NCBI GenBank assembly: GCA_034620365.1
Contig: JAQGEQ010000369.1
Location: forward strand, 1-64,000
Length of the DNA stretch: 64,000 nt
Origin: Pegea sp. RAD2-039
Taxonomy: Eukaryota; Chordata; Thaliacea; Salpida; Salpidae
Direction of reading: 5' to 3'
A model generated the notes under the pieces. It was not told where the DNA came from and made no database searches. It was given only the letters and a program-made list of their open reading frames with translations. Below are positions 1 through 35,704 of the stretch, one piece after another; position 1 is the first letter of the stretch, and each line of letters starts with the position of its first letter. The position numbers were made by a program, and so were the translations under genes.

Positions 1-605
1 TTTATAATAAAAGTTCCAGTAACAATATTAATTGATTGAAGCACGCATGATAATTTGATCAAATCACAATATACAATTTCTTACAGCTTTTGTATATCCG
101 CAGATATTTATAATTTTGGAAACATTTCTTCAAGTTATAATCAATAATTTGAAAGATGCTTTTTTATATTCACTTATTCAAATAAGTTTTGTTATATATA
201 GAAAACAGACAAAATGAATAATTTTCAAAAATTTTGTATCCTTTGTTTTGTAATTCTTTAATTTCGGAAATACACTTTAAAAATAATCAATTTTTTTATT
301 TTGGTTTTGAAAAATTTTCCTTTTGTATTAGTAATACAAATTTAATTGCATATTTAACCTTGTAAATATGAAAATTATTAAATTTTTTTTTTTTTGAAAA
401 TAACGAAAATAATTAGTTTAAGGTTTTTGCTAATAATAATTATAATAATTATATTTTTAATTAATTAATCTGAAACACACAGCTTGTAATAGAATGCTCG
501 TAAGAAATAAAAATTTAAATATTTACTAACTTACTTGAAAAATTAATTCATTAATACATTTAAAAGTTTAATACCTTCAATTTGGAAGTTATTATTTGTA
601 AATTA

Positions 606-705
606 TGAAAGGCGTTTCGCCCTGTACATGTGGACTTCAAGCACTTTCACTGACCATAAGCATTTTGAAAATTGCTTGTCATAGCATTCTACGTATCTTA
701 ATTTT
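606..705. other. G+C-richer block of unknown role, copy 1
   Basis: From GAAAGGCGTTTCGCCCTGTA onward, about 100 bp stands out from its surroundings with balanced base use. It includes a GGCG-TTT-CGCC hairpin at its start. It is repeated almost unchanged in copy 2 at about 26718-26817. No known RNA fold or reading frame is recognised. Confidence 0.4.
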
Positions 706-2139
706 AAATATTTTGTTCCTTTACGAAATCTAAAGGTCAACTTTGATTCAATTATTATATATATACTATTATACTTATTATAATATTAGTTATTAATATA
801 ACATTTTTATTTTATAATTCGTCGTGATTATGCAAGACAAAAATTGTAAAATTCATTTTAATTTCCTTATATTAAATAAACGCTTAATACTAATAAAATA
901 TTCAAATTAAATTTTGGATTAAATTTTGTTTTGTATATCTTTTATTTTGATTAGATTTGTTTTTTCAATTTGTTTTGTTAGAGAAATGAAAATCAAGAAA
1001 GCAGTTCTTTTTTATTTAATAAAGACCACAATGTTTTTTATTGCAAATTGTATAAACGTTTCTACAAATCCATAAATAAATTTATCAAATGATTATAATT
1101 AACAATGAAAAGATGTGAAATACATGACTTACTAATAAATTTTACCCAACATATAGCAGGAATTATTAATCTTAAAGTAACCTGGTTCATAAAGTTTATT
1201 ATCTTTTAACAAAAAAAGGATTTTCAAGAAATATTTATTTTGACAAAAAAATGAGGATTTAACTCATAGAATATAGATTAAATTGTTGTTAAACCTTTTT
1301 GAAAATTCTTTTAAAGATCAAACGAAAAAATTCTGAGTCTTATAGTACTCTCAATTTACTATTATAAAAACAAAAAGTCACATGGCTTTTGACATAATTT
1401 AAATTTGTCAAAACGACGGATAATATTTAAAATTAATCATTGAAGTAGAAATAACTTTAAATATAAATCAAATAAAACTTCATAAGAAAAATTAAACTAA
1501 TTTGGTTTGTATAATATTAAACTTGTAAAACATTTTCTTATCAACTTTAAAATCAAATTTTCTATTTGAAAAATATTTGTCAACAAAATGCTTATCGATA
1601 AAATTATAAAATTAATTTCATTTGAACTTGATCCCATACACTTCAGATTGCAACAACGTTTATAATAAATGAAAAGTTAAATAAAACTCAATCTTTCGTA
1701 AAGAATTTTTTTTCGTACTTTACAACGAAACTTTAAATAATAAATAATAGGTAATATGACAGATTTTTTACTAATTGAAAACTTTTCATTCAACAAAACT
1801 ATTATTTTTCTTTTTATTATCATCTATTCGAAATCATTAAATATCAGCTTGGCAATTCTGTTTTTATCTATCATGAGATAAAATATCAAATAGTATAAAT
1901 CTGTTTCTAAAATTTTTAAAGTTGTAAATTGTTGCCTTCGATATATCAATTTACAAAAAGTAAAATTTACTTTTATGAATGGAAAATTTATGAATTACTA
2001 TCCTTTTCTAGATCCTTAAAAAAAACATATATATTTAAATGTATTATTTAATATCTTCTGTAAACTGAAAGTAATACCATATTAAAATTTTACAAAATAA
2101 TGTATTTTTGTAAGTGTTTTTTTAATAACAAACCGTCTA

Positions 2140-2153
2140 GCGCCAAGTAGCGG
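2140..2153 (-). promoter_or_regulatory. CTCF-like palindromic site (CTACTT type)
   Basis: The minus strand reads CCGCTACTTGGCGC. The outer halves match a CTCF-type site, but the centre CTACTT replaces CTAGGT. The same site and flanks occur at 28253 and 62746, and inverted at 59646. Confidence 0.45.
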
Positions 2154-2434
2154 AAAAGGAAACAGTCGACTTGTTTTTTGTAGGTTTATCTTATTTTCCT
2201 GATTTGTTTACATTATCTAAAACAATAAAGATTTTAAATAGTCCTATTAATCAATGTACTATTAATTTTTAATTTATAAAATACTTAATATTTGAGTTAA
2301 ACAAAGAAATAAAATAACAGTTTTTGATAGAAGCTCAGTTTAATGATACTTATATTTAATTTGAACTAATGTATCATTATAAAAATATTATCAACAATAA
2401 CTTTATCGATTAATTAAAGCCATCAAAAGATTTA

Positions 2435-2570
2435 CCGATACCACAAACCTAAGATTGAATGAAAATTATATATTACCGTAAAGCTTACGGAGAAATGAAA
2501 TCGTTTTATCTCGTAATTTGAAATTAAGATAATAATTTGGAAGATGAACTTTTGCATCTGGTTGTCAAGT
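2435..2570 (+). repeat. Core-plus-hairpin module, type 1
   Basis: In order this holds ACCACAAACCTAAGATTG, CGTAAAGCTTACG-like sequence and an AGATGAA/TGCATCT hairpin (2542-2559) followed by GGTTGTCAAG. The same order occurs at about 4935, 28545, 31065, 46340, 55500 and 63040, and inverted at about 59205-59340. This is a repeated architecture of unknown function. Confidence 0.7.
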
Positions 2571-3466
2571 ATGTTTTTTCCAAGGTAAAAATAAGATTTT
2601 GCGTTTATTTGAGATTGTTTGATGTTTACAAATTCCTTGTTAAAAAGTATAACTTAAATTTTCTTTTAATCTTTTGTTATGCATTTAAGTCAATATTTTT
2701 AACAAACAACCGTTTTTTTGCCCAATATCTATCGAACAAACTAATATTGTTTTTTGTAAGAACATCAGGATTGAGCGTTTTCTCTAAATTGCTCGAAGGT
2801 TTTTAAATTCTGTTTGCTGTTAGAAATTTTCTTTTTAATTTGTTTTAAATATTTTAAGATTCATCACATATTAAATTCCTTACTTTCTTCATTGAATATT
2901 TTATGCTATCTAAACAATTTTCATACTAACAATATGTTTTAAATTTTTCATGATCAGTAAGAAACAACTAAAATCTTAATTTGACGTTTTTAAAGACTGT
3001 TTCATGATAAATCTTTTCTTTGAATCAAAAATGAATAATTGAAAATGCGAGTTATAATTTCAACAACTCTTAAATCTCTCTATAATAATAAATAGATCTA
3101 AAATCTGTGAACTACTTCAAAACTACTGCGTGTCGGTCAAAAATAATCAAAATATTCTTCCAATTAATTCAAAAATATAAAATTAGTTCCTTAATGACTT
3201 TTAATTTCCTTAATCTTTTGATCAGAAGATGTTTTTAAATCAATATAAGTGTTATCTCACCATACCATCTTATAAGTCAAATCTTATTGCAAAGAATGAA
3301 TACTGAAGATATTAAACTTTTTGATAAATGGAGCTTGACGAAGAAATATAATGATTTTGATTAAACGATATAAAAAGGAAATAACTATAAACTAATCAAG
3401 TGTTTTGTCATTTTTTTAGAAAGTACTAACTTATAATTTTCCACCGATTCACTTAAATGAAGTTTC

Positions 3467-3484
3467 GTTGAAAAGTATTTCAAC
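3467..3484. repeat. GTTGAAA hairpin
   Basis: GTTGAAA-AGTA-TTTCAAC, a perfect 7-bp stem with a 4-nt loop. Near-identical hairpins lie at 29580-29597, 37915-37932, 43531-43548 and 50953-50970, each about 70-200 bp from a CCACAAAC-type core. Confidence 0.7.
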
Positions 3485-4162
3485 TCAAAATTATGTAAAC
3501 GATTTGTTATCAGGAAAAAATGCTTGAAAGATATACTTTTCATTACTTATAAACGTTATTGCAATCTAGAGTTTGTGGCATAAAGCTAGAGTACGATATT
3601 TTTATAATTTTAATAATAAACTATTTGTTGACATATACTGCTTACACAGAAAATTTGACTTAAAGGTGAAAAGCAATTTTTATTGTAACTTAATTATTGG
3701 TAAAACCAAAATTAGTATAAAATTGTAACAATATAAAATTTACCAAAATTTATTAGTTTAAAATTGATCCCAAAAACTCTAAACTGTAATCAATTAATAA
3801 TAAATAAAAAGGTTGTAAGATCCATTGTAGTGTAAGAAACCTGTTATTATTTGTTTGAATTTGAATGACTTTTAACGAAAATTGATTAATATATACTAAG
3901 ACTACTTTGAGTTTTAATTTGCTACATTTAGCAGCATAAAAGTAATTTATGTTTAACATTTACTTTTTGACGTAAAAACATGTAACTGATAAAATGAGCG
4001 AATGTTTACAAATTTTTATGAAACAAAATGTTTTAGCAAAATTAGTAATTTTAAAACAGACATTTTAAACACATTTTTCAGTCTGGATAATTATAAAACT
4101 TTCTATTCTTAATATTTTAGCAGAAATGAATTAAAAAAATAGTTATTCAAAATTGTTATTTT

Positions 4163-4176
4163 ACGCTACTTAGCGC
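4163..4176 (+). promoter_or_regulatory. CTCF-like palindromic site (CTACTT type)
   Basis: Reads ACGCTACTTAGCGC, close to a perfect palindrome, followed by AAAAGAGG. The counterpart in copy 2 is at 30276. Confidence 0.35.
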
Positions 4177-5022
4177 AAAAGAGGTTTATTTTAAAAAATA
4201 CTAAAATCAGAAATTAAAAACTTTTTTTTAAATTCTTAATTGTATTTAGCAACTTTTTGAAATTTTTAATCGAGAGTTTTGTTGAGGTTACCATTTGTAG
4301 ACTGCTAATAATTGCTGATGTCAATAAGCAGTTGATTACCAAATTGATGGTTAGACTCAACTATTAGGCTCCATTAGTTTTGTTAAACTCTCTTTGAGTT
4401 AAATTTCTAACTAAGTTTGGTTTTTAAATTTCATTTTAGGATTAGTTCAAACAGTTTGACGCTATTAAAACTTTTTTCTAGTTATTAGTAAACTGTTTGT
4501 ATATTATTTTTAAATAGGATTTTACAAATGAAAATTTTGATTCGATTAGCGACAATTGTTCAACAAATCATTTATATATTTTAATAATTTATAATAGTAA
4601 TTTATCATAATAATTTATAATAGTATAATAATAATAATTAATTTGTTTTTAAAACATTCAACTGCTACTTGGCAGATAAAAAGTTAAAAGAATAAAGTTT
4701 TTTAAAGAATCACACTGACCAATGTACCATCAATTTCTATTTTATGAAATACTATTTACACTATAAAATTGTTTAATTTTCAGTTTTAATTAAAATGCAA
4801 TATTATATAACAATAAAGAAAAACAAAAAAATAATTTATTGAGAAGAATAAATAAATAAAATAATCGTTAAGATAGAAGTTCAGTTAAAAATGAAATTTT
4901 CTATAACATTATTGATTGATTAAAGCAATCGAAAAATTTACCGACACCACAAGCGTAAGATTGAATGAAGATAATATATAACCGTAAAGCTTACGTAGAA
5001 GTGAAATCATTTTATTACTCAT

Positions 5023-5146
5023 CTAGATTAAAGATACTAATTTGGAAGATGCACTCTTGCATCTGATTATCAAAATTTTTTGTTCTAGATTAAAGATACT
5101 AATTTGGAAGATGCACTCTTGCATCTGATTATCAAAATTTTTTGTG
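5023..5146 (+). repeat. Tandem duplication, 2 x 62 bp
   Basis: Two adjacent units start at 5023 and 5085, each beginning CTAGATTAAAGATACTAA and each holding a perfect AGATGCA-CTCT-TGCATCT hairpin (5047-5064 and 5109-5126). The same doublet stands in copy 2 at 31144, so it arose before the long duplication. Confidence 0.9.
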
Positions 5147-6660
5147 TTACATTTTTCTTTTACTTTTTATTCATTGATTTATTCATTTAAATCAACATTT
5201 TTTAAGAGCAACAGTTTTTCTGCATAAAATCTATCGTTACCACAAACGAAGATTATTTTTAATAAGAATATCAAGATTGAACGTTTTCTCTAAATTGCTT
5301 AAAATTGTTAAAATCTGTTTGCTATTAGTAATTTTCTTTGTAATTTCTTTTAAATATTTTTGGGTTCATCATTCCTTATTTTCTTAATTGAGTATTTTTG
5401 GCTGTTTAAAAACTAAAAATACGTTTTCGCATTTGTAATGAGTATTTTTTTACAAAAAATATAATTGTTTTGAAATTGGTCAATCGTTTTTAAATTATAT
5501 AAATTGTGAAGGTACTTGTTAACAGGATATTACTAAAAGATTAAAATCGGATTTTTCAAAAATGTTTAAAGTCTGTTGTTTATGGTGCTAGAAATCTAAA
5601 CAAGTTTAACATTTTTTAAGAAAGTACAATGTAATCGGTGTACAAAATTACTGCATGAAATATCAAAACATGTTAACTTCTTTTACTTTTATTAAAGCAA
5701 ATTGTTTAAGTTCATTTGAAATCTCAGACAATGCCAGTTGAAAAATTGTTACAATGTTATACATGTTACTTAAATACATCAATTTGCATATAACATTAAA
5801 AATTCAGTTCATTATAAAAACTATACTTTATTTAAACTTCAATGTTATTTGAAATAATTGGTTAATTTTGAATTTTATTTTTAACGATTTAACTATCTGT
5901 GCTTTAATGTACTTATTAATTTTAATTCTGAATTAATTAAAATTCAGTTTTTAATAGCTGAATTATTTTTTGTACAATAATAAATTCTTTTCGATTTCTT
6001 TTAAAAAATCAAGTATGGTTTAAAGTAAATTAGTAAAAGTTAATAAAATCTAATAATTTTTAAAGATTTTTTTCTAAATATTAGATAATAAAAAAATAGG
6101 AAAAAGTATTAACACATATATTAATATATATATATAGAGAGAGATTTTGATAAATTAAGTGAAATCTTTACCACACAATGATTAACTTTTATTATGGATA
6201 AAGTATACAAACACGTACGTCTGTAGTCTAACAACATCATCAATTGATTGATATAATTATTAAAAATATTGCTGTTTTTAATGTTATTCTTGGTCCAGTT
6301 CTAAATCTGTTTATCAGTAAAATAACTATTTTCATTTTTTCACTTCAAAACCAAAATTGAACTTTTTGCTGAAATTTATAAAACAAACACTCTCTAAATT
6401 TTAAGTTGTAAATATAAAAAGCAATTTGCTAATCTACAAAAATATAAAACTTTCAAATATTTAAGTTTAAATGTATCTAGAACATACGAACTGATATTAA
6501 TATGGTGTAATATCAACTTTAAATAATACAGCAAGTATTTTTTGATACTTAAACACAAATTGATTTTGAGAATTTGAATACTTTATACAGTTTACAATAG
6601 ATTAGCTTTTTATTACTAGTCCAAATTCCAATGAAATATATTTGTATGTTTTTATTTTAT

Positions 6661-6674
6661 AGGTCACCTAGCGG
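6661..6674 (-). promoter_or_regulatory. CTCF-like site, decayed
   Basis: The minus strand reads CCGCTAGGTGACCT. The copy-2 counterpart at 32769 keeps CCGCTAGGTGGCGT, so this one has probably lost its right end. Confidence 0.35.
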
Positions 6675-7789
6675 ATGTAATATTTTACTTACAATAAAAA
6701 AAATCTAAAACTTTAAAAGTCTTCTAATAACTTACTTCAAAGATTTTTATCTTTGTGTAATGGTTTGTGCTATTGTTTATTGTTTTAATATAAGATTCTA
6801 CCGATTTATCAAAACTTTTCAATGATTTAAAATCCCAAAATTGTTTAGAATATAATTCATTTCAACTTGTTATTCAATTTATTAGTTATTAACAACTGAC
6901 TAATTTTGCGGAAATAAAAATGTTATTTGTAAAGATTCTGGCATTTTATCGGTAGCATGATTACAACAATGTAATGAAATTCTCATGTGAATAATCTTTA
7001 TTTCTTTATTTCTACAAAATAAAAAATAAATTCACTCAATTGTTTTACTAACTAAACTTCTGTAGAAAAGTGTTTCAACTCAAAATTAAAATAATCTTTT
7101 TTTTAATTACGCTATCAAGAAAATTAGATAATTATACTTTTCCTTTAATATATCAAATGTAGAGTTTGTGGGATCAAGTTCAAGATAAATATATTTTTTA
7201 AATTTTAATAGAAAACTTCTTGTTGACAAATAATACTTAAATCAAATTTGACTTTACAGTTAATACATATATATTATCAATCTTTTTTCTAATTTAATTA
7301 AGCTTAAGTGGTATCATCAAATCTTGTATGTATGCTATTGTATGTATGCCTTAATAAAAAAAAATTAATTTAATTTAATTTTAATTTCTATCATTTTCTC
7401 TGTTTACCAGTATTGCAAACTGTATGATAATTTGAAATCATTTTAAAAGTTTCACATGCTTTTTATTATTATGCTCGACAATAAATTCAAATGAGATTAA
7501 ATCTTTACAGATAACAAGAACTTTTAAAAAAAAGTTATTTAGTATTTTCTTAGATTGATCGTTATCAAAAGTTTTTATATTTTCTCGAAAACAATGGAGT
7601 CAAAAAATTTATCTTCTATTAAAAATAATTTATGAAATTTAATTATGTATTATAACCTTTTTTAACAGTTTATTTTATATTTGATTTTAAAAACAGAAAG
7701 AGAAACTAACGGTCTTTTTATTTTATAGATTTTACAAGTTGTAAGCGTTTACTTCAATCTTGGGAAAATAAATAAAAATTAAAAACTTA

Positions 7790-7814
7790 TTCTTGCGTAA
7801 TCATTTAGCAAGAA
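7790..7814. repeat. TTCTTGC/GCAAGAA hairpin
   Basis: A 7-bp stem with an 11-nt loop. Copies lie at 54497-54521 and, with a changed loop and a 6-bp stem, at 24421-24443. In copy 2 near 33895 the left arm is damaged. Confidence 0.5.
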
Positions 7815-9000
7815 AATAACTTATTTAATATTTGCAAATTATTTGATAACATTGAAATTGTAAAAATATTATCAAACAAGAGAAAAATGTTGTTTTAAAA
7901 AAATAAAATAACTTTTTAAAAATTGAAAACATTTTAAAGAGTGCTTTAAAAGATTTCAAAAATATTCTAATTGTTTTTTGAAAATCTCAAGTTTTTTATT
8001 TTTTTGTAAAAAGAAAACAATTTGGTTTAATAGTTGTATAAACACATCTTTAGAATTGTGAATCTGTAATTGGTGAAATATGTACTAGATCATGTCTATA
8101 TATGGCTTGTATATATTAATTTACAAACAATTAATTTAAATACTTTGTGGCAAAATCTTTTTCTGCTCTGTTATATAAACAAGTTTCTTCAAAATATTTG
8201 TGCTTTTCTACAAGATTCAATATTTTAGAAGTTGTATCAAACAAGTCGTTTATTGAAGATTTTAAAACCATTTAAAAATTTTAAAATATATGAAAACGTT
8301 ATTACAAAAAAGTTACTTTTTTAGATTAATGTAAATAAACTGTTTATAAATGTTTACAAATATTTTGACTTTTCTTATATTATTTGTAAAAAGTAAACAC
8401 AATAAAATGAACTGAAAAAATTGTTTGAAAAAACAGAAGTTTAAAATTTGTGCTAATAATTAAAATAACTGTAAACATTTTATATTTCTTAGTATTATAA
8501 GTAATTGTTTAATACATAGATATAAGACTGCATCTTGCAAAATACGTAGTGGTAATAGTTTTTTAAACAATTCAATTAATAGAAGAAATATATTGATTTA
8601 TTTATGCTTATATATATATAATTTCTAGATATATATAGATAAATTTTGTAAAATATGGAAATTCAAGTTATTCAACTTATTTACTAATTGAATTTTCGTT
8701 TAAAAGTACTTGGACTCCAAGTTAAATTTTAAGTAGCCACTGATTATTTTTAAATAAGGCATTCTTTAGTTTTTGATTATTTATTACTTTGTTGCAATCT
8801 AAAGTTCAGTTGGTATCAACTTCAGACAAATTCTTTCTTAAATTTGTCAAAAGATTTTTAAAAACTTTCACTTGCAATCTTAAATTTGCAATTTAAAAAT
8901 CATACACTTCAGATTGCAACAACGTTTATTATAAGTGAAAAGTAAAATAAAACTCAATCTTTCGTAAAGGATTGCAAAGTTTTTTAATTTGGAGTTAAAG
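7800..9000 (+). repeat. Module R, copy within long repeat 1
   Basis: About 1.2 kb with copies at 34000-34980 (in long repeat 2), 23490-24230 (partial, forward) and 53370-54600 (inverted). It contains the strongly conserved block at 8155-8270. No coding capacity is seen. Confidence 0.78.
8155..8270 (+). repeat. Conserved 116-bp block, copy 1
   Basis: This block starts CAAAATCTTTTTCTGCTCTG, includes TTATATAAACAAG, and ends GTCGTTTATTGAAGATTTTA. The four copies (here, 23533, 34254 and inverted 54044) differ at only a handful of positions by eye, while flanking bases have drifted much more. It has no recognised function. Confidence 0.72.
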
Positions 9001-12760: not shown

Positions 12761-13248
12761 TATATATTTATTTTTATAAAAAAATTATTGTTTGAACATT
12801 TCTTGTCAACAAAAAGATTAAAAGTAATTCTTTTTTCTATATTCTAAATTGGTTTATGCAAATAAATTCTAAAAAAAAAGTAAAGTTGATTGTTTTTATT
12901 CTCGCTTACTGGTGCTAAAAGTACATTTAAAATTTAAAATTTTGTTCAATTACAAAATATTTTGTAATAAAATTTCAAAGAACAATTTTCGTATAATAAA
13001 CTTTCTTTCATATTTTTATTTGAATAATGAAAAGTATTTGAAAACTAAAATTTGTAACAACAAATTTATGAATATCATTTTACTTAACTTTCGATAATAG
13101 TTGCTAAAAATAAAACATTATAGCTCTTAAAATTTAACTTTAGATTAAAAATATTGAATAAAATTTTGGGTTAAATTAATTTTGTTTTCTTATATTTTTT
13201 TTTGATGTTTTCTTATACTTTCCATTTATGCTTCTAACTAGTTATTGG

Positions 13249-13255
13249 AAAAAAA
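13249..13255 (-). terminator. Pol III oligo-T terminator of the tRNA
   Basis: On the minus strand, seven T residues begin five bases after the last paired base of the tRNA (after G at 13260 and AAAA). A run of four or more T is the usual Pol III stop, and this spacing is typical. T runs are common in this A+T-rich DNA, so position rather than sequence supports the call. Confidence 0.7.
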
Positions 13256-13270
13256 TTTTCGGCAGCAGTG

Positions 13271-13281
13271 GGATTCGAACC
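13271..13281 (-). promoter_or_regulatory. Pol III internal promoter, B box
   Basis: On the minus strand this reads GGTTCGAATCC, a full match to the B-box consensus GGTTCGANTCC in the T arm of the tRNA. With the intact A box it argues against a long-dead pseudogene. Confidence 0.88.
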
Positions 13282-13323
13282 CACGCCATCGAAATGACTG
13301 GTGCCGTAAACCAGCGCCTTAGA

Positions 13324-13334
13324 CCGCTCGGCCA
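13324..13334 (-). promoter_or_regulatory. Pol III internal promoter, A box
   Basis: On the minus strand this reads TGGCCGAGCGG, which fits the eukaryotic A-box consensus TRGYNNANNNG. It lies in the D arm of the tRNA and is intact, so transcription by RNA polymerase III is plausible. Confidence 0.85.
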
Positions 13335-13449
13335 CGCTACCAATGACAACTTTTGAAAGTTAGAATAAAATTATTTAAACAAAAAATTGATATTTTAAAC
13401 AATAAAACAAAAATTAAACAAAAAAAAGGAAAAAGCTTTGTATATCATA

Positions 13450-13890
13450 AACGTTATTATGGTAGCGTTAAGTGAAAACAAAAAGGATTACTTCTTTATA
13501 CTACTAGTAGCATGATGGCATCAATACAACGAAAAAAGAAACAATTTGTAAGCATTTAAAATCTCAATCTACATATTTGCTTACTTACGACAGAATTATT
13601 CAGAGTTTAACAAGCAAAAGAAAGACAGAAAATATGAAAGAAATATACAAGTCCACATCATTCTTCATATCGTTATATGTCGGAGATCTTTTCGTTAAAT
13701 GCAACTGACAGTATCAGTTTTCAAATTTAAAGTAAAATTAAAAGCTATACAAGCAACAGTTTGTTAATCTGGTATAAAATTGAATGCGTTATATGACAAC
13801 TTATTTTCTTTTTGTTTGTGAGCTCATTTCAAACACTTTTATAATGCTTTTCACACAAGTGTTAAGCTATAAACATGTGTAAGACATCTT
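13450..13890 (+). repeat. tRNA-island repeat, unit A
   Basis: Begins TAGCGTTAAGTGAAAACA and holds the AACTGA-CAGTA-TCAGTT hairpin at 13703-13719, then a GTTATATGACAAC...GTGAGCTCATTTCAAAC stretch. Units B (15610-16080) and C (18485-18968) follow the same order. It starts about 110 bp upstream of the tRNA 5' end. Function is unknown. Confidence 0.7.
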
Positions 13891-14617
13891 AATTAAAGAT
13901 TATTTCTTGTTTGAAATTAATTGTTTACTTTATATATTTAAATTAGAACTTTGAAAAGAGTAAAAACAAACTTCTTGAAAGTATTTACTTTATTTAAACT
14001 ACATTTAATGTTGAATTTGCTTCAGAATAAATTCTGCTGTTGGCAGGTTATCTATGAAGGCCAACTACAAATACTAAAATGAAATGATTTCAAATCTTCT
14101 GAATATTATGCTGAGCTAAATTTGTTATTGCTTACTATAAGTCTAATTCATAAAGATGACGTCATCAGCATCTCATAGATTAACATGTCTTTTTGATTTA
14201 TACAAGAAATTGTTTATACCGTGTCAGCTTTACTAAGAACCAAATCAAGAATGTTGGATTAAATATTAAATCAAGAGAGTTTAATAATATCTCTACTAAC
14301 ATCTATAAGTGAAGAACAATTTATATCATTGATATATAGTAGCGTTAGCTTATTAAGACTAACTTCAGATATTTAACAAAAGTAAAATGACGACAATCAC
14401 ACAACAAACCATTAGATTTATGAAAAAGAAGTATATTAGTTATGATTTATTCATACCAGCGTCACTTAAAAGTGATAAGCAACTGAATAATGAAGCCAAT
14501 AAACTCGGATAACATAAAATGTTGTTATTATACATTGCAAATGGTTTGTAGTTCATCAGTGTTAATACAATTATTCAAAATATATTATGATATTATATAA
14601 ATTAGTTGTTTTTCTAA
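13890..14617. other. Gene-free stretch with a CRE-like palindrome
   Basis: No gene is seen. GATGACGTCATC at 14155-14166 is a perfect 12-bp palindrome holding TGACGTCA, the classic CREB/ATF site. GACGTCA also recurs in the repeats near 11610, 44610, 49990 and 60390. Confidence 0.45.
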
Positions 14618-14850
14618 ATAAAGATAATGACATCAACATAACAAAAGCACAAAAGTTTAGAATTTGCAAATGATTCAATGAAGATTAAGATTATAGATGC
14701 TTGTTTACTTTTGATATTGTCTTTTAGAATTAAACAAATTAAATGAAAAATTTTAGAAAAGGTTTTATGACATTGGTACGTTCTATTAAATAAAAGATAG
14801 TTTTAGGATTAAACGCAACTGACAATATCAGTTTCCAAAATCTCATGTTA
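14618..14850 (+). repeat. tRNA-island repeat, unit D (partial)
   Basis: A shortened unit with TAATGACATCAACATAACAA at the left and the hairpin AACTGA-CAATA-TCAGTT at 14817-14833. It lacks the right part seen in A-C. Confidence 0.6.
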
Positions 14851-26112: not shown

Positions 26113-26717
26113 TTTATAATAATAATTCCAGTAACAATATCAATTGATTGAAGCACGCATGATAATTTGATCAAATCGCAATATACAATTTCTTACAGCT
26201 TTTGTATATCCGCAGATATTTATAACTTTGGAAACATTTCTTCAAGTTATAATCAATAATTTGAAAGATGCTTTTTTATATTCACGTATTCAAATAAGTT
26301 TTGTTATATATAGAAAACAGACAAAATGAATAATTTTCAAAAATTTTGTATCCTTTGTTTTGTAATTCTTTAATTTCGGAAATACACTTTAAAAATAATC
26401 AATTTTTTTATTTTGGTTTTGAAAAATTCTTCTATTTTATTAGTAATACAAATTTAATTGTATATATAACCTTGTAAATATGAAAATTATTAAATTTTTT
26501 TTTTTTTGAAAATAACGAAAATAATTAGTTTGAGGTTTTTGCTAATAATAATTATAATAATTATATTTTAAATTAATTAATCTGAAACACACAGCTTGTA
26601 ATAGAATGCTCGTAAGAAATAAAAATTTAAATATTTACCAACTTACTTGAAAAATTAATTCATTAATACATTTAAAAATTTAATACCTTCAATTTGGAAG
26701 TTATTATTTGTAAATTA

Positions 26718-26817
26718 TGAAAGGCGTTTCGCCCTGTACATGTGGACTTCAAGCACTTTCACTGACCATAAGCATTTTGAAAATTGCTTGTCATAGCATT
26801 CTACGTATCTTAATTAT
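26718..26817. other. G+C-richer block of unknown role, copy 2
   Basis: Second copy of the block at 606-705, with almost no changes by eye, including the GGCG/CGCC hairpin at its start. It has no recognised function. Confidence 0.4.
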
Positions 26818-28252
26818 AAATATTTTGTTCCTTTACGAAATCTAAAGGTCAACTTTGATTCAATTATTAAATATATACTATTATACTTATTATAATATTA
26901 GTTATTAATATAACATTTTTATTTTATAATTCGTCGTGATTATGCAAGACAAAAATTGTAAAATTCATTTTAATTTCCTTATATTAAATAAACGCTTAAT
27001 ACTAATAAAATATTCAAATTAAATTTTGGATTAAATTTTGTTTTGTATATCTTTTATTTTGATTAGTTTTGTTTATTCAATTTGTTTTGTTAGAGAAATG
27101 AAAATCAAGAAAGCAGTTCATTTTTGTTTATTAAAGACCACAATGTTTTTTATTGCAAACTGTATAAACGTTTCTACAAATCCATAAATAAATTTATCAA
27201 ATGATTATAATTAATAATGAAAAGATGTAAAATACATGACTTACTAATAAATTTTAACCAACATATAGCAGGAATTATTAATCTTAAAGTAACCTGGTTC
27301 ATAATGTTTTCTATTCTTTAATAAAAAAAGGATTTTCAAGAAATATTTATTTTGACAAAAAAATGAGGATTTAACTCATAGAATATAGATTAAATTGTTG
27401 TTAAACCTTTTTGAAAATTCTTTTAAAGATCAAACGAAAAAATTCTGAGTCTTATAGTACTCTCAATTTACTATTTTAAAAACAAAAAGTCACATGGCTT
27501 TTGACATAATTTAAATTTGTCAAAACGACGGATAATATTTAAAATTAATCATTGAAGTAGAAATAACTTTAAATCTAAATTAAATAAAACTTCATAAGAA
27601 AAATTAAACTAATTTGGTTTGTATAATATTAAACTTGTCAAAAATTTTCTTATCAACTTTAAAATCAAATTTTCTATTTGAAAAATATTTGTCAACAAAA
27701 TGCTTATCGATAAAATTATAAAATTATTTTCATTTAATTTTGATCCCATACTCTTCAGATTGCAACAACGTTTATAATAAATGAAAAGTTAAATAAAACT
27801 CAATCTTTCGTAAAGAATTTTTTTTCGTACTTTACAACGAAACTTTAAATAATAAATAATAGGTAATATGACAGATTTTTTACTAATTGAAAACTTTTCA
27901 TTCAACAAAACTATTATTTTTCTTTTTATTATCATCTATTCGAAATCATTAAATATCAGCTTGGCAATTCTGTTTTTATCTATCATGAGATAAAACATCA
28001 AATAGTATAAATCTGTTTCTAAAATTTTAAAAGTTGTAAATTGTTGCCTTCGATATATCAATTTACAAAAAGTAAAATTTACTTTTATGAATGGAAATTT
28101 TATCAATTACTAACCTTTTCTAGATTCTTAAAAAAAAACATATATATTTAAATGTATTATTTAAGATCTTCTGTAAACTGAAAGTAATACCATATTAAAA
28201 TTTTACAAAATAATGTATTTTTGTAAGTGTTTTTTTAATAACAAACCGTCTA

Positions 28253-28266
28253 GCGCCAAGTAGCGG
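28253..28266 (-). promoter_or_regulatory. CTCF-like palindromic site (CTACTT type)
   Basis: Copy-2 counterpart of the site at 2140. The 14 bases are unchanged. Confidence 0.45.
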
Positions 28267-28544
28267 AAAAGGAAACAGGCGACTTGTTTTTTGTAGATTT
28301 ATCTTTTAGTCCTCATTTGTTTATATTACTTAAAACAATAAAGATTTTAAATAGTCACAGTAACCAACGTACTATTAATTTTTAATTTATAAAATACTTA
28401 ATATTTGAGTTAAACCAAGAAATAAAATAAGAGTTTTTGATAGAAGCTCAGTTTAATGATACTTAAATTTAATTTGAACTAATGTAGCATTATAAAAATA
28501 TTATCAACAATAACTTTATCGATTAATTAAAGCCATCGAAAGAT

Positions 28545-28682
28545 TTACCGATACCACAAACCTAAGATTGAATGAAAATTATATATAACCGTAAAGCTTA
28601 CGGAGAAATGAAATCGTTTTATCTCGTAATTTGAAGTTAAGATACTAATTTGGAAAATGCACTTTTGCATCTGGTTGTCAAG
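28545..28682 (+). repeat. Core-plus-hairpin module, type 1 (copy 2)
   Basis: Counterpart of 2435-2570, with ACCACAAACCTAAGATTG, CGTAAAGCTTACG and an ATGCA-CTTT-TGCAT hairpin at 28657-28670. Confidence 0.7.
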
Positions 28683-30275
28683 TATGTTTTTTCCAAGGTA
28701 AAAATAAGATTTTGCGTTTATTTGAGATTGTTTGATGTTTACAAATTCCTTGTTAAAAAGTATAACTTAAATTTTCTTTTAATCTTTTGTTATGCATTTA
28801 AGTCAATATTTTTAACAAACAACCGTTTTTTTGCCCAATATCTATCGAACAAACTAATATTGTTATTTGTAAGAACGTCAGGATTGAGCGTTTTCTCTAA
28901 ATTGCTCGATGGTTTTTAAATTCTGTTTGCTGTTAGTAATTTTCTTTTAAATTTCTTTTAAATCTTTTAGGATTCATCATATATTAAATTTCTTACTTTC
29001 TTCATTGAGTATTTTATGCTATCTAAACAATTTTTATATAAACAATAAGTTTTAAATTCTTCATGATCAGTAAGAAACAACTAAAATCTTAATTTGACGT
29101 TTTTAAAGACTGTTTCATCATAAATCTTTTCTTTGAATCAAAAATGAAAAATTGAAAATGCGAGTTATAATTTCAACAATTCTTAAATCTCTCTATAAAA
29201 ATAAATAGATCTAAAATCTGTGAACTACTTCAAAACTACTACGTGTCGGTCAAAAATAATCAAAATATTCTTCCAATTAATTCAAAAATATAAAATTAGT
29301 TCCCTAATGACTTGTAAGTTACTTAATCTTTTGAACGGAAGATGTTTTTAAATCAATATAAGTGTTATCTCACCATACCATCTTATAAGTCAAATCTTAT
29401 TGTAAAGAATGAATACTGAAGATATTAAACTTTTTGATAAATGGAGCTTGACGAAGAAATATAATGATTTTGATTAAACGATATAAAAAGGAAATAACTT
29501 TAAACTAATCAAGTGTTTTGTCATTTTTTTAGAAAGTACTAACTTATAATTTTCCACCGATTCACTTAAATGAAGTTTCGTTGAAAAGTATTTCAACTCA
29601 AAATTATGTAAACGATTTGTTATCAGGAAAAAATGCTTGAAAGATATACTTTTCATTACTTATAAACGTTGTTGCAATCTAGAGTTTGTGGCATCAAGCT
29701 AGAGTACGATATTTTTATAATTTTAATAATAAACTATTTGTTGACATATACTGCTTACACAGAAAATTTGACTTAAAGGTGAAAAGCAATTTTTATTGTA
29801 ACTTAATTATTGGTAAAACCAAAATTAGTATAAAATTGTAACAATATAAAATTTACCAAAATTTATTAGTTTAAAATTGATCCCAAAAACTCTAAACTGT
29901 AATCAATTAATAATAAATAAAAAGGTTGTAAAATCCATTGTAGTGTAAGAAACCTGTTATTATTTGTTTGAATTTGAATGACTTTTAACGAAAATTGATT
30001 AATATATACTAAGACTACTTTGAGTTTTAATTTGCTACAATTAGCAACATAAAAGTAATTTATGTTGAAAATTTACTTTTTGACATAAAAACATGTAACT
30101 GATAAAATGAACGAATGTTTACAAATTTTTATGAAACAAAATGTTTTAGCAAAATTAGTAATTTTAAAACAGACATTTTAAACACATTTTTCAGTCTGGA
30201 TAATTATAAAACTTTCTATTCTTAATATTTTAGCAGAAATGAATTAAAAAAATAGTTATTCAAAATTGTTATTTT

Positions 30276-30289
30276 ACGCTACTTAGCGC
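30276..30289 (+). promoter_or_regulatory. CTCF-like palindromic site (CTACTT type)
   Basis: Copy-2 counterpart of the site at 4163, reading ACGCTACTTAGCGC, unchanged. Confidence 0.35.
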
Positions 30290-31143
30290 AAAAGAGGTTT
30301 ATTTAAAAAAATACTAAAATTAGCAATAAAAACTTTTTTAAAATTTTTAATGGTATTTAGCAACTTTTTTAAATTTTTATTCGAGAGTTTTGTTGAGGTT
30401 ACCATTTGTAGACTGCTAATAATTGCTGATGTCAATAAGCAGTTGATTACCAAATTGATGGTTAGACTCAACAATTAGGCGCAATTAGTTTTGTTAGACT
30501 CTCTTTGAGTTTAAATTCTAACTAATTTCAGTTCTTTAATTTCATTTTAGGATTAGTTCAAACAGTTTGACGCTATTAAAACTTTTCTCTAGTTATTAGT
30601 AAACTGTTTGTATATTATTTTTAAATAGGATTTTACAAATGAAAATTTTGATTCGATTAGCGACAATTGTTCAACAAATCATTTATATATTTTAATAATT
30701 TATAATAGTAATTTATCATAATAATTTATAATAGTATAATAATAATAATTAATTTGTTTTTAAAACATTCAACTGCTACTTGGCAGCTAAAAAGTTAAAA
30801 GAATAAAGTTTTTTAAAGAATCACACTGACCAATGTACCATTAATTTCTATTTTATGAAATACTATTTACACTATAAAGTTGTTTAACTTTCAGATTTAA
30901 TTACATATATTTAATATTTAATATTATATAACAATAAAGAAAAACAAAAAAATAATTTATTGAGAAGATTAAAGAAATAAAATAATCGTTAAGATAGAAG
31001 TTCAGTTAAAAATGAAATTTTCTATAACATTATTGATTGATTAAAGCAATCGAAAAATTTACCGACACCACAAACGTAAGATTGAATGAAGATAATATAT
31101 AACCGTAAAGCTTACGTAGAAGTGAAATCATTTTATTACTCAT

Positions 31144-31267
31144 CTAGATTAAAGATACTAATTTGGAAGATGCACTCTTGCATCTGATTATCAAAATTTT
31201 TTGTTCTAAATTAAAGATACTAATTTGGAAGATGCACTCTTGCATCTGATTATCAAAATTTTTTGTG
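31144..31267 (+). repeat. Tandem duplication, 2 x 62 bp (copy 2)
   Basis: This is the counterpart of the doublet at 5023-5146. The second unit starts CTAAATTAAAG instead of CTAGATTAAAG. The hairpins at 31168-31185 and 31230-31247 are unchanged. Confidence 0.88.
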
Positions 31268-32768
31268 TTACATTTTTCTTTTACTTTTTATTCATTGATT
31301 TATTCATTTAAATCAACATTTTTTAAGAGCAACAGTTTTTCTGCATAAAATCAATCGTTACCACAAACGAAGATTATTTTTCATAAGAATATCAAGATTG
31401 AACGTTTTCTATAAATTGCTTAAAATCGTTAAAATCTGTTTTCTATTAGTAGTTTTCTTTCTAATTTCCTTTAAATATTTTTGGGTTCATTATTCCTTAT
31501 TTTCTTAATTGAGTATTTTTGGCTGTTTAAAAACTAAAAATACGTTTTCGCATTTATAATGAGTATTTTTTTACAAAAAATATAATTGTTTTGAAATTGG
31601 TCAATCGTTTCTAAATTATTTAAATTGTGAAGGTACTTGTTAACAGGATATTACTAAAAGATTAAAATCGGAATTTTTAAAAATGTTTAAAGTCTGTTGT
31701 TTATGGTGCTAGAAATCTAAACAAGTTTAACATTTTTTAAGAAAGTACAATGTAATCGGTGTCCAAAATTACTGCATGAAATATCAAAACATGTTAACTT
31801 CTTTTACTTTTATTAAAGCAAATTGTTTAAGTTCATTTGAAATCTCAGACAATGCCATTTGAAAAATTGTTACAATGTTATACATGTTACTTAAATACAT
31901 CAATTTGCAGATAACATTAAAAATTCAGTTCATTATAAAAACTATACTTTATTTAAACTTCAATGTTAATTGAAATAATTGGTTAATTTTAAATTTTATT
32001 TTTAACGATTTAACTATCTGTGCTTTAATGTACTTATTAATTTTATTTCTGAATTATTTAAAATTCAGTTTTTAATAGCTGAATTATTTTTCAACTATAA
32101 TAAATTCTTTTCGTATTCTTTTAAAAAATTAAATATGGTGTCAAGTAAATTAGTAAAATTTAGTAAAATCTAACAATTTTTAAAGATTTTTTTCTAAATA
32201 TTAGATAATAAAAAAATAGGAAAACGTATTAACACATCTATTAATATAGAGATAGATTTTGATAAATTAAGTAAAATCTTTACCACGCAATAATTAACTT
32301 TTATTATGAATAAAGTATACAATCACGTACGTCTGTAGTCTAACAACATCATCAATTGATTGATATAATTATTAAAAATATTGCTGTTTTTAATGTTATT
32401 CTTAGTCCAGTTCTAAATCTGTTTATCAGTAAAATAACTATTTTCATTTTTTCACTTCAAAACCAAAATTGAACTTTTTACTGAAATTTATAAAACAAAC
32501 AATCCTTAGATTTTAAGTTGTAAATATAAAAAGCGATTTGTTAATCTACAAAAATATAAAACTTTCAAACATTTAAGTTTAACTGTATCTATAACATACG
32601 AACTGATATTTATATGGTGTAATATAAACTTTAAATAATACAGCAAGTATTTTTTGATACTTAAACACAAATTGATTTTGAGAATTTGAATACTTTATAC
32701 AGTTTACAATAAATTAGCTTTTTATTACTAGTCCAAATTCCAATGAAATATATTTGTATGTTTTTTAT

Positions 32769-32782
32769 ACGCCACCTAGCGG
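32769..32782 (-). promoter_or_regulatory. CTCF-like site
   Basis: The minus strand reads CCGCTAGGTGGCGT, two positions off the remembered vertebrate CTCF consensus. Its copy-1 counterpart at 6661 is further decayed. Confidence 0.5.
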
Positions 32783-34253
32783 ATATAATATTTTACTTAC
32801 AATAAAAAAAATCTAAAACTTTAAAAGTCTTCTAATAATTTACTTCAAAGATTTTTATCTTTGTGTAATGGTTTGTGCTATTGTTTATTGTTTTAATATA
32901 AGATTCCACCGATTTATCAAAACTTTTCTGTAATTTAAAATCCCAAAATCTTTTAGAATATAAATCATTTCAACTTGTTATTCAATTTATTAGTTATCAA
33001 CAACTGACTAATTTTACTGAAATAAAAATGTTATTTGTAAACATTTTGGCATTTTATCGGTAGCATGATTACAACAATGTAATGAACTTCTAATGTAAAT
33101 AATCTTTATTTCTTTATTTCTACAAAATAAAAACTAAATTCACTCAATTTATTTACTAATTAAACTTCTGTAGAAAAGTGTTTCAACTAAAAATTAAAAT
33201 AATCTTTTTTTAATTACGCTATCAAGAAAATTAGATAATTGTACTTTTCCTTTAATATATCAAATGTAGAGTTTGTGGGATCAAGTTCAAGATAAATATA
33301 TTTTTTAAATTTTAATAGAAAATAACTTGTTGACAAATAATACTTAAATCAAATTTGACTTTACAGTTAATACATATATATTATCAATCTTTTTTCTAAT
33401 TTATTTAAGCTTAAGTGGTATCATCAAATCTTGTATCTATGCTATTGTATGTATGCTTTAATAAAAAAAATTAATTTAATTTAATTTTAATTTCTATCAT
33501 TTTCTCTGTTTACCAGTATTGCAAACTGTATGATACTTTGAAATCATTTTAAAAGTTTCACATGCTTTTTATTATTATGCTCGACAATAAATTCAAATGA
33601 GATCAAATCTTTACAGAGAACAAGAACTTTTAAAAAAAGTTATTTAGTATTTTCTTAGATTGATCGTTATCAAAAGTTTTTATATTATCTCGAAAACATT
33701 GAAGTCAAAAAATGTATCTTCCATTAAAAGTAATTTAGGAAATTTAATTATTTATTGTAACCTTTTTTAACTGTTTATTTTATATTTGATTTTAAAAACA
33801 AAAGAGAAACTAACGGTCTTTTTATTTTATAGATTTTAAAAGTTGTAAGCGTTTACTTCAATCTTGGGAAAATAAATAAAAATTAAAAACTTATTTTAGC
33901 GTAATCATTTAGCAAGAAAAGAACTTATTTAATATTTGCAAATTATTTCATAACATTGAAATTGTAAAAATATTATCAAACAAGAGAAAAATGTTGTTTT
34001 AAAAAATTAAATAACTTTTTAAAAATTGAAAACATTTTAAAGAGTGCTTAAAAAGATTTCAAAAATATTCTAAATGTTTTTTGAAAATCTCAAGTTTTTT
34101 ATTTTTTTGTAAAAAGAAAACAATTTGGTTTAATAGTTGTATAAACACATCTTTAGAATTGTGAATCTGTAATTGGTGAAATATGTACTAGATCATGTCT
34201 ATATATGTCTTGTATATATTAATTTACAAACAATTAATTTAAATACTTTGTGG

Positions 34254-34370
34254 CAAAATCTTTTTCTGCTCTGTTATATAAACAAGTTTCTTCAAAATAT
34301 TTGTGCTTTACTACAAGATTCAATATTTTAGAAGTTGTATCAAACAAGTCGTTTATTGAAGATTTTAAAA
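34254..34370 (+). repeat. Conserved 116-bp block, copy 3
   Basis: Counterpart of 8155 in long repeat 2. It is almost identical, as expected for a recent duplication. Confidence 0.72.
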
Positions 34371-35704
34371 CCATTTAAAAATTTTAATTATATGAAAACG
34401 TTATTACAAAAAAGTTACTTTATTAGATTAATGTAAATAAACTGTTTATAAATGTTTACAAATATTTTGACTTTTCTTATATTATTTGTAAAAAGTAAAC
34501 AAAATAAAATGAACTGAAAAAATTGTTTGAAAAAACAGAAGTTTAAAATTCGTGCTAATATTTAAAATAACTGTAAAAATTTTATATTTCTTAGTTTTAT
34601 AAGTAATTGTTTAATACATAGATGTAAGTGTGCATCTTGCAAAAAACGTAGTGGTAATAGTTTTTTCAACAATTCAATTAATAGAAGAAATATATTGATT
34701 TATTTATGCTTATATATATGTAATTTCTAGATATATATAGATAATTTTTGTAAAATATGGAAATTCAAGTTATTCAACTTATTTATTAATTGAATTTTCG
34801 TTTAAAAGTATTTGGACTCCAAGTTAAATTTTAAGTAGCCACTGATTATTGTTAAATAAGGCATTTTTGAGTTTTTCAATATTAACACTTTGTTGCAATC
34901 TAGAGTTCAGTTGGTATGATTTTCAGACGAATTCTTTCTAAAATTTGTTATAAGATTTTCAAAAACGTTTCACAATTATTTAATTTCTTTATTTTTTCAT
35001 AAAATTATGACATTAATACATAAAAACATTAATTTTAACTTTTGCTTTTATCGTTTGCGTTCTCTAGCAAATAAAATATCTTGAACATTAATAGTCTCTG
35101 GATAAATTACTTTAATGGTTTGTATGATTTGCAAATTATTTTGAAGATCAAACGAAAATGATATCTGAGTCCTATAGTACTCTCAGTTTTTAAAACAAAT
35201 AGTCACATGGCCTTTGGTATATTTTTCATTGTCAGTACGATTGATCATTTTTAATTTTAGTCTTCTAAGTAGAAGTAAATTTAAATCTGAAATAAATAAA
35301 ACTTCATAAGAAAAATTAAACTAATTTGGTTTGTATAATAGTAAACTTAAAATAAATTTTCTTATCAACTTTAAATCAAATTTTCTATTTGAAAAATATT
35401 TGTCAACAAAATGCTTATCAATAAAATTATAAAATTAATTTCATTTGAACTTGATCCCATACACTTCAGATGGCAACAACGTTTATAAGAAATGAAAAGT
35501 AAAATAAAACTCAATCTTTCGTAAAGGATTGCAAAGTTTTTTAATTTGGAGTTAAAGTACTTTACAACAAAACTTTAAATAATAAATAAGTTTAATAACT
35601 TGAGTCTTTATTTAATACAAAATAATTTTGTAAACATGTTGTTTATCTTGTTGTAAATATTTTCGATAAAATTAAAAACGTATTTATAAAACGAGCAACA
35701 TTTA

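Follow-up and report, generated by a model that had tools for sequence, protein, structure and literature searches.

The question raised by this locus is whether a tRNA gene copy with a leucine-type body, an ACG anticodon and a G at position 73 is a working tRNA that misreads arginine codons, or a duplicate of an ordinary leucine gene that has been released from selection. We favour the latter explanation with a probability of about 85%: the copy would be an unconstrained duplicate of tRNA-Leu(AAG) on its way to becoming a pseudogene. It lies on the minus strand of the window, which here means the whole stretch of DNA analysed, bases 1-64000 of a contig 100,509 bases long, from an assembly of 105.7 Mb in 387 contigs.

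The G+C content of the window is 19-27% in 2-kb steps, and no stop-to-stop frame of 120 codons or more is found in its 64 kb under the standard code. The low G+C, the missing standard frames and the 55 frames of at least 200 codons obtained with translation table 6 could point to a ciliate, but that reading is ruled out by the ARP1 gene of the genome, which reads through under the standard code, and by the homeodomains. There are 71 homeodomain matches in the genome against none in 14 prokaryote controls, and the genome is therefore that of an animal. A nematode source is unsupported, as the nematode SL1 leader has no match with two or fewer mismatches in the 105.7 Mb. Ribosomal L2 gave a single weak exon match in the genome, and COX1 gave none. 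From what insect tRNA and ARP1 sequences look like, an arthropod would be no more than a guess. The window is rich in internal duplications. One of these, of 8.9 kb and 96.4% identity, is found at positions 1-8871 and 26113-34973, about 26.1 kb apart, and many further stretches of 400-1900 bp are shared within the window.

The copy is an 82-nt class II tRNA, read on the minus strand from 13341 to 13260: GGUAGCGUGGCCGAGCGGUCUAAGGCGCUGGUUUACGGCACCAGUCAUUUCGAUGGCGUGGGUUCGAAUCCCACUGCUGCCG. It is no chance match; its score under the Rfam tRNA model is 50.7 bits (E 6.5e-8). ARAGORN calls just one tRNA across the 64 kb, namely this one, as tRNA-Arg(acg). By inspection, the anticodon stem pairs as CUGGU/ACCAG around the loop UUACGGC, and the variable arm pairs as well. 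The A box and the B box both agree with the usual consensus, and the trailer is AAAA followed by seven T (13255-13249). The minimum-energy fold has four arms (-35.3 kcal/mol, z -2.3), with the D and anticodon pairs out of their textbook register, and the same is true of the intact gene L032. A bacterial-type promoter scan was uninformative, this being a Pol III gene. The preliminary description had listed the class II fold, the two boxes, the paired stem and arm, the oligo-T, the ACG and the G73, all of which are present, and had called the body leucine-type, in agreement with the 79 of 82 bases that equal those of ten identical Leu(AAG) genes in the same genome. The conflict between body and anticodon is thus real, with ACG arising through the change of A35 to C. 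The copy does not have the broken fold or boxes by which a pseudogene could be recognised, since its arms and boxes are intact at 50.7 bits. The features are collected in the table.

Features of the tRNA gene copy and of the duplicated DNA around it (positions in the window)
Feature	Position	Strand	Remark
Whole tRNA gene copy, with G73 and an ACG anticodon on a body derived from Leu(AAG)	13260..13341	minus	locus L031
Anticodon ACG	13305..13307	minus	C35 (13306) replaces A35 of the ten intact Leu(AAG) genes
G at base 73 in place of A (plus-strand C at 13260)	13260..13260	minus	C in L034, U in L049
Acceptor-stem change C66->U, turning the pair G7-C66 into G7.U66	13267..13267	minus	also in L034 and L049
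A box TGGCCGAGCGG, intact	13324..13334	minus	agrees with the usual consensus
B box GGTTCGAATCC, intact	13271..13281	minus	agrees with the usual consensus
Leu-type variable arm CAU-UUCG-AUG	13287..13296	minus	as in intact genes (sequence comparison)
T7 run, likely Pol III terminator	13249..13255	minus	4 nt past the tRNA (from sequence)
583-bp block: 59 bp of 5' flank, tRNA, 442 bp of 3' flank	12818..13400	minus	93-95% identity with L039, L032, L033 and L043, besides the sister copy L034
Duplicated segment, 2.0 kb or longer	12818..14839	minus	96.2% identity with the surroundings of L034 on contig C275; 5' extent cut by the fetched locus

A search for copies elsewhere in the genome had been proposed in the preliminary description. 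With the tRNA as query against the whole 105.7-Mb assembly we found at least 25 places related to tRNA-Leu(AAG), the place counts being lower bounds, and only one of them, the window copy, has an ACG anticodon. Ten are intact Leu(AAG) genes, identical to one another and all with A73. The other 15 are non-intact: 11, including the window copy, are full-length with 3 to 9 substitutions relative to the consensus, and four are 10 nt short. Three changes separate the window copy from the ten intact genes (A35->C, C66->U and A73->G), and the first and last of them are confined to it among the 25 places, while C66->U is common to the window copy, L034 and L049. The sister copy L034 has the anticodon AAG and a C at position 73, and it lies on contig C275, 3.7 kb from L049, which has U73. 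In the related copies L031, L034 and L049, A73 has been replaced by G, C and U, respectively. Another family member, the relic L051, has the anticodon GAG together with C33. The Rfam scores are 56.1 bits for the intact genes, only 5.4 bits above the 50.7 of the window copy, 45.0 for L034 and 33.2 for L049. Odd Leu or Ser copies were looked for within the reach of this search and of the ACG-pattern search given below, and others may exist outside it.

The similarity extends beyond the tRNA itself. Besides the copies given in the table, L037 contains part of the 583-bp block at 90% identity. The 3' flank of the window copy is found at 19 places in the genome, seven of which are long (six nearly full length, counting the window, and one covering 355 of the 446 bases), and each of the seven adjoins a Leu(AAG) family copy; at the remaining 12 about 200 bases match at 77-79%. 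A mobile element carrying the tRNA was considered and appears unlikely, as the edges look like mosaic duplication and not like one clean insertion.

Between the window copy and L034, 3 of 82 positions differ in the tRNA and 68 of 1937 in the flanks (Fisher p = 0.76), so the tRNA has changed at the flank rate, which is the rate expected without selection on it. The comparison of the two sequences gives no sign of purifying selection on the window copy, although the test has low power, since only about three changes would be expected over 82 positions at about 3.5% divergence, and selection for a new role could give the same outcome as neutral drift. The intact genes L032, L033 and L039 show no difference from L037 in the 82 positions of the tRNA, whereas 54-56 of 432-435 positions differ in the 3' flanks and 13-15 of 59 in the 5' flanks; for L032 and L037 the contrast is 0/82 against 69/491 (p = 2.4e-5). 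Gene conversion could account for part of this identity among intact copies. Over the 21 copies without indels, that is with the four shortened ones left out, we counted 52 substitutions, including changes shared by descent. Two fall in the anticodon, where 1.9 would be expected if they were evenly spread, and the anticodon changes of the family appear consistent with random decay. Three fall on base 73 against 0.63 expected, which is above even drift, but the counts are tiny.

The ACG-tRNA pattern was found at 15 places in the whole genome, and the reversed-pattern control gave no match. Twelve of the places are ordinary class I Arg(ACG) genes, identical to one another, two are on contig C247, and the window copy is the only class II tRNA. 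The number of Arg(ACG) genes is a minimum because some positions of both boxes are fixed in the pattern. Their D loop reads GGATAA and that of the window copy GGUCUAA, where U, C and U follow the GG and A20 is absent (the numbering is our own). A canonical tRNA-Arg(ACG) has a class I body with A20, and the window copy is thus not one of them. Nor is it a tRNA-Ser: it has the G73, which is also present in both Ser(TGA) genes examined in the genome, and a large variable arm, but the body is that of a leucine tRNA and the arm is Leu-type with a UUCG loop. On C247, L066 and L067 (about 412254-412772) are G+C-rich, 46-52% compared with 23-38% in the other loci listed, and contain repeated B-box-like GGTTCGAGTCC motifs; ARAGORN calls no tRNA there.

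Once A34 has become inosine, an ACG anticodon reads CGC and CGA besides CGU. An expressed mistranslating tRNA, charged by SerRS, would accordingly insert serine at a low level at CGU, and through inosine 34 also at CGC and CGA. The rules of tRNA identity, as far as they are covered by the part of PMC9976931 used here, lend some weight to this: A73 is the main determinant of leucine, serine identity in eukaryotes is set by G73 together with a large variable region, and the change A73G alone gives human tRNA-Leu serine acceptance in vitro. The reasoning of the preliminary description on G73, the long arm and A73G therefore holds as far as this source goes, and charging with serine, and hence serine at CGU, is chemically plausible by analogy. 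A mature transcript would perhaps be a serine acceptor that reads CGU, and CGC and CGA as well if position 34 is inosine. Insertion of serine or leucine had been proposed; the serine half stands as plausible, while leucine is the unlikely half, since A73 is lost, and G73 is found in the two Ser(TGA) genes and A73 in all ten intact Leu(AAG) genes, just as the identity rules say. The intact A and B boxes and T run also speak for mistranslation, as does the precedent of the nev-tRNAs, class II tRNAs that can decode with a foreign anticodon (PMC4300185, in part). On the other hand, the copy is single and gives no sign of constraint, it would have to compete with 12 or more ordinary Arg(ACG) genes, and it has kept the UUCG loop of the leucine variable arm, a stable loop that opposes serine acceptance in yeast (PMC9976931, same part). 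In C. elegans cells, moreover, the nev-tRNAs gave no detectable mistranslation according to the part of PMC4300185 used here. With promoter boxes and fold intact, a low level of mistranslation is conceivable, but we regard it as unlikely. It is a little more doubtful still that we are looking at a recent double switch in a nuclear animal tRNA, where A35C has changed the decoding and A73G the charging so that serine is placed at CGU.

The copy could instead have been remoulded into a true arginine tRNA, charged by ArgRS through C35 and G36 and decoding correctly. In yeast, arginine identity depends prominently on C35 with G36 or U36 after it and base 73 plays no part, but in mammals and plants arginine identity is mainly A20 with C35 (both from the part of PMC9976931 used here). 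The lack of A20, with U, C and U after the GG of the D loop where the normal Arg(ACG) genes have GGA, would make the copy a poor substrate for ArgRS, just as the loss of A73 would make it a poor one for LeuRS; it has also retained the long variable arm and gives no sign of constraint, and we find such a remoulding extremely improbable. Errors made in sequencing or assembling a genuine Leu(AAG) gene would explain why A35->C and A73->G are confined to the window copy among the 25 places. They would not explain C66->U, which L034 and L049 share although they lie on another contig, nor the differences in the flanks around the gene, which are equally dense, and this explanation is very unlikely too.

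The unconstrained duplicate is in our opinion the most rational explanation. A segmental duplication of a cytosolic tRNA-Leu(AAG) gene would have been followed by loss of selective constraint and by drift, leaving, in a repeat-rich window, a leucine body that is intact but for the three point changes listed above. The result would be a young pseudogene, probably silent or weakly transcribed. Any transcript that matured would be charged with serine at best, being a good substrate for neither LeuRS nor ArgRS, and at CGN codons it would be in the minority beside the tRNA made from the 12 or more ordinary Arg(ACG) genes. The ACG triplet is most likely an accident of drift and not an adaptation of decoding; only one of the 25 family places has it, and L034 and L049 have also lost A73. 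Against decay speak the intact fold, both boxes and the T7 run, and the score of 50.7 bits, which exceeds the 45.0 of L034. The working misreading tRNA of the preliminary description is nevertheless not what the family indicates, with a single ACG copy, a sister that has likewise lost A73, and no indication of constraint. A clean fold and clean boxes combined with an odd anticodon should be read with caution, as they can reflect drift in a large and redundant family. If the copy were expressed and serylated, on the other hand, it would show in a natural setting how well an animal tolerates a change from arginine to serine at CGU.

On its sequence, the window copy is an anticodon-shifted tRNA gene. 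Among anticodon shifts in eukaryotes, 31 of 75 were alloacceptor shifts, with position 35 the commonest in these, and they were ascribed to tRNA gene redundancy (PMC3923123, in part). The present case is similar in that one substitution at position 35 in a redundant family has produced the anticodon of another amino acid, but those shifts were found by synteny between species and ours among paralogues of one assembly. A Met-body tRNA gene with a recent anticodon mutation, regarded as a silenced pseudogene or conceivably a specially regulated gene (PMC8450103, in part), has the same conflict between isotype and anticodon, although its body lacks a long arm, whereas the window copy has a class II leucine body and a changed discriminator. 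The nev-tRNAs of nematodes (nev-tRNA-Gly CCC and nev-tRNA-Ile UAU) resemble it in having a long variable arm with the anticodon of another amino acid. They are leucylated in vitro, are weakly expressed and matured in C. elegans, and one of them is used in an insect cell-free system, according to the part of PMC4300185 used here. They presumably carry A73, judging from their leucylation, and the window copy differs from them in being single and without this leucine determinant. With A73 lost, and SL1 absent from the 105.7 Mb at two mismatches or fewer, the nematode analogy of the preliminary description is unsupported.

Some tRNA genes of the genome are arranged in cassettes or arrays. Repeated tRNA cassettes are found at L044-L055 (contigs C136, C109, C286, C273, C275, C261, C191 and C287), with Met(CAT), His(GTG) and Leu(AAG), or a relic of it, within about 1.4 kb at six of the 12 loci, and His and Leu at four more. 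The leucine members of these cassettes are altered, and four are 10 nt short. At L003-L017 (C19 and C77) there are arrays of three to five tRNA-Cys(GCA) genes, for the most part spaced by about 196 bp.
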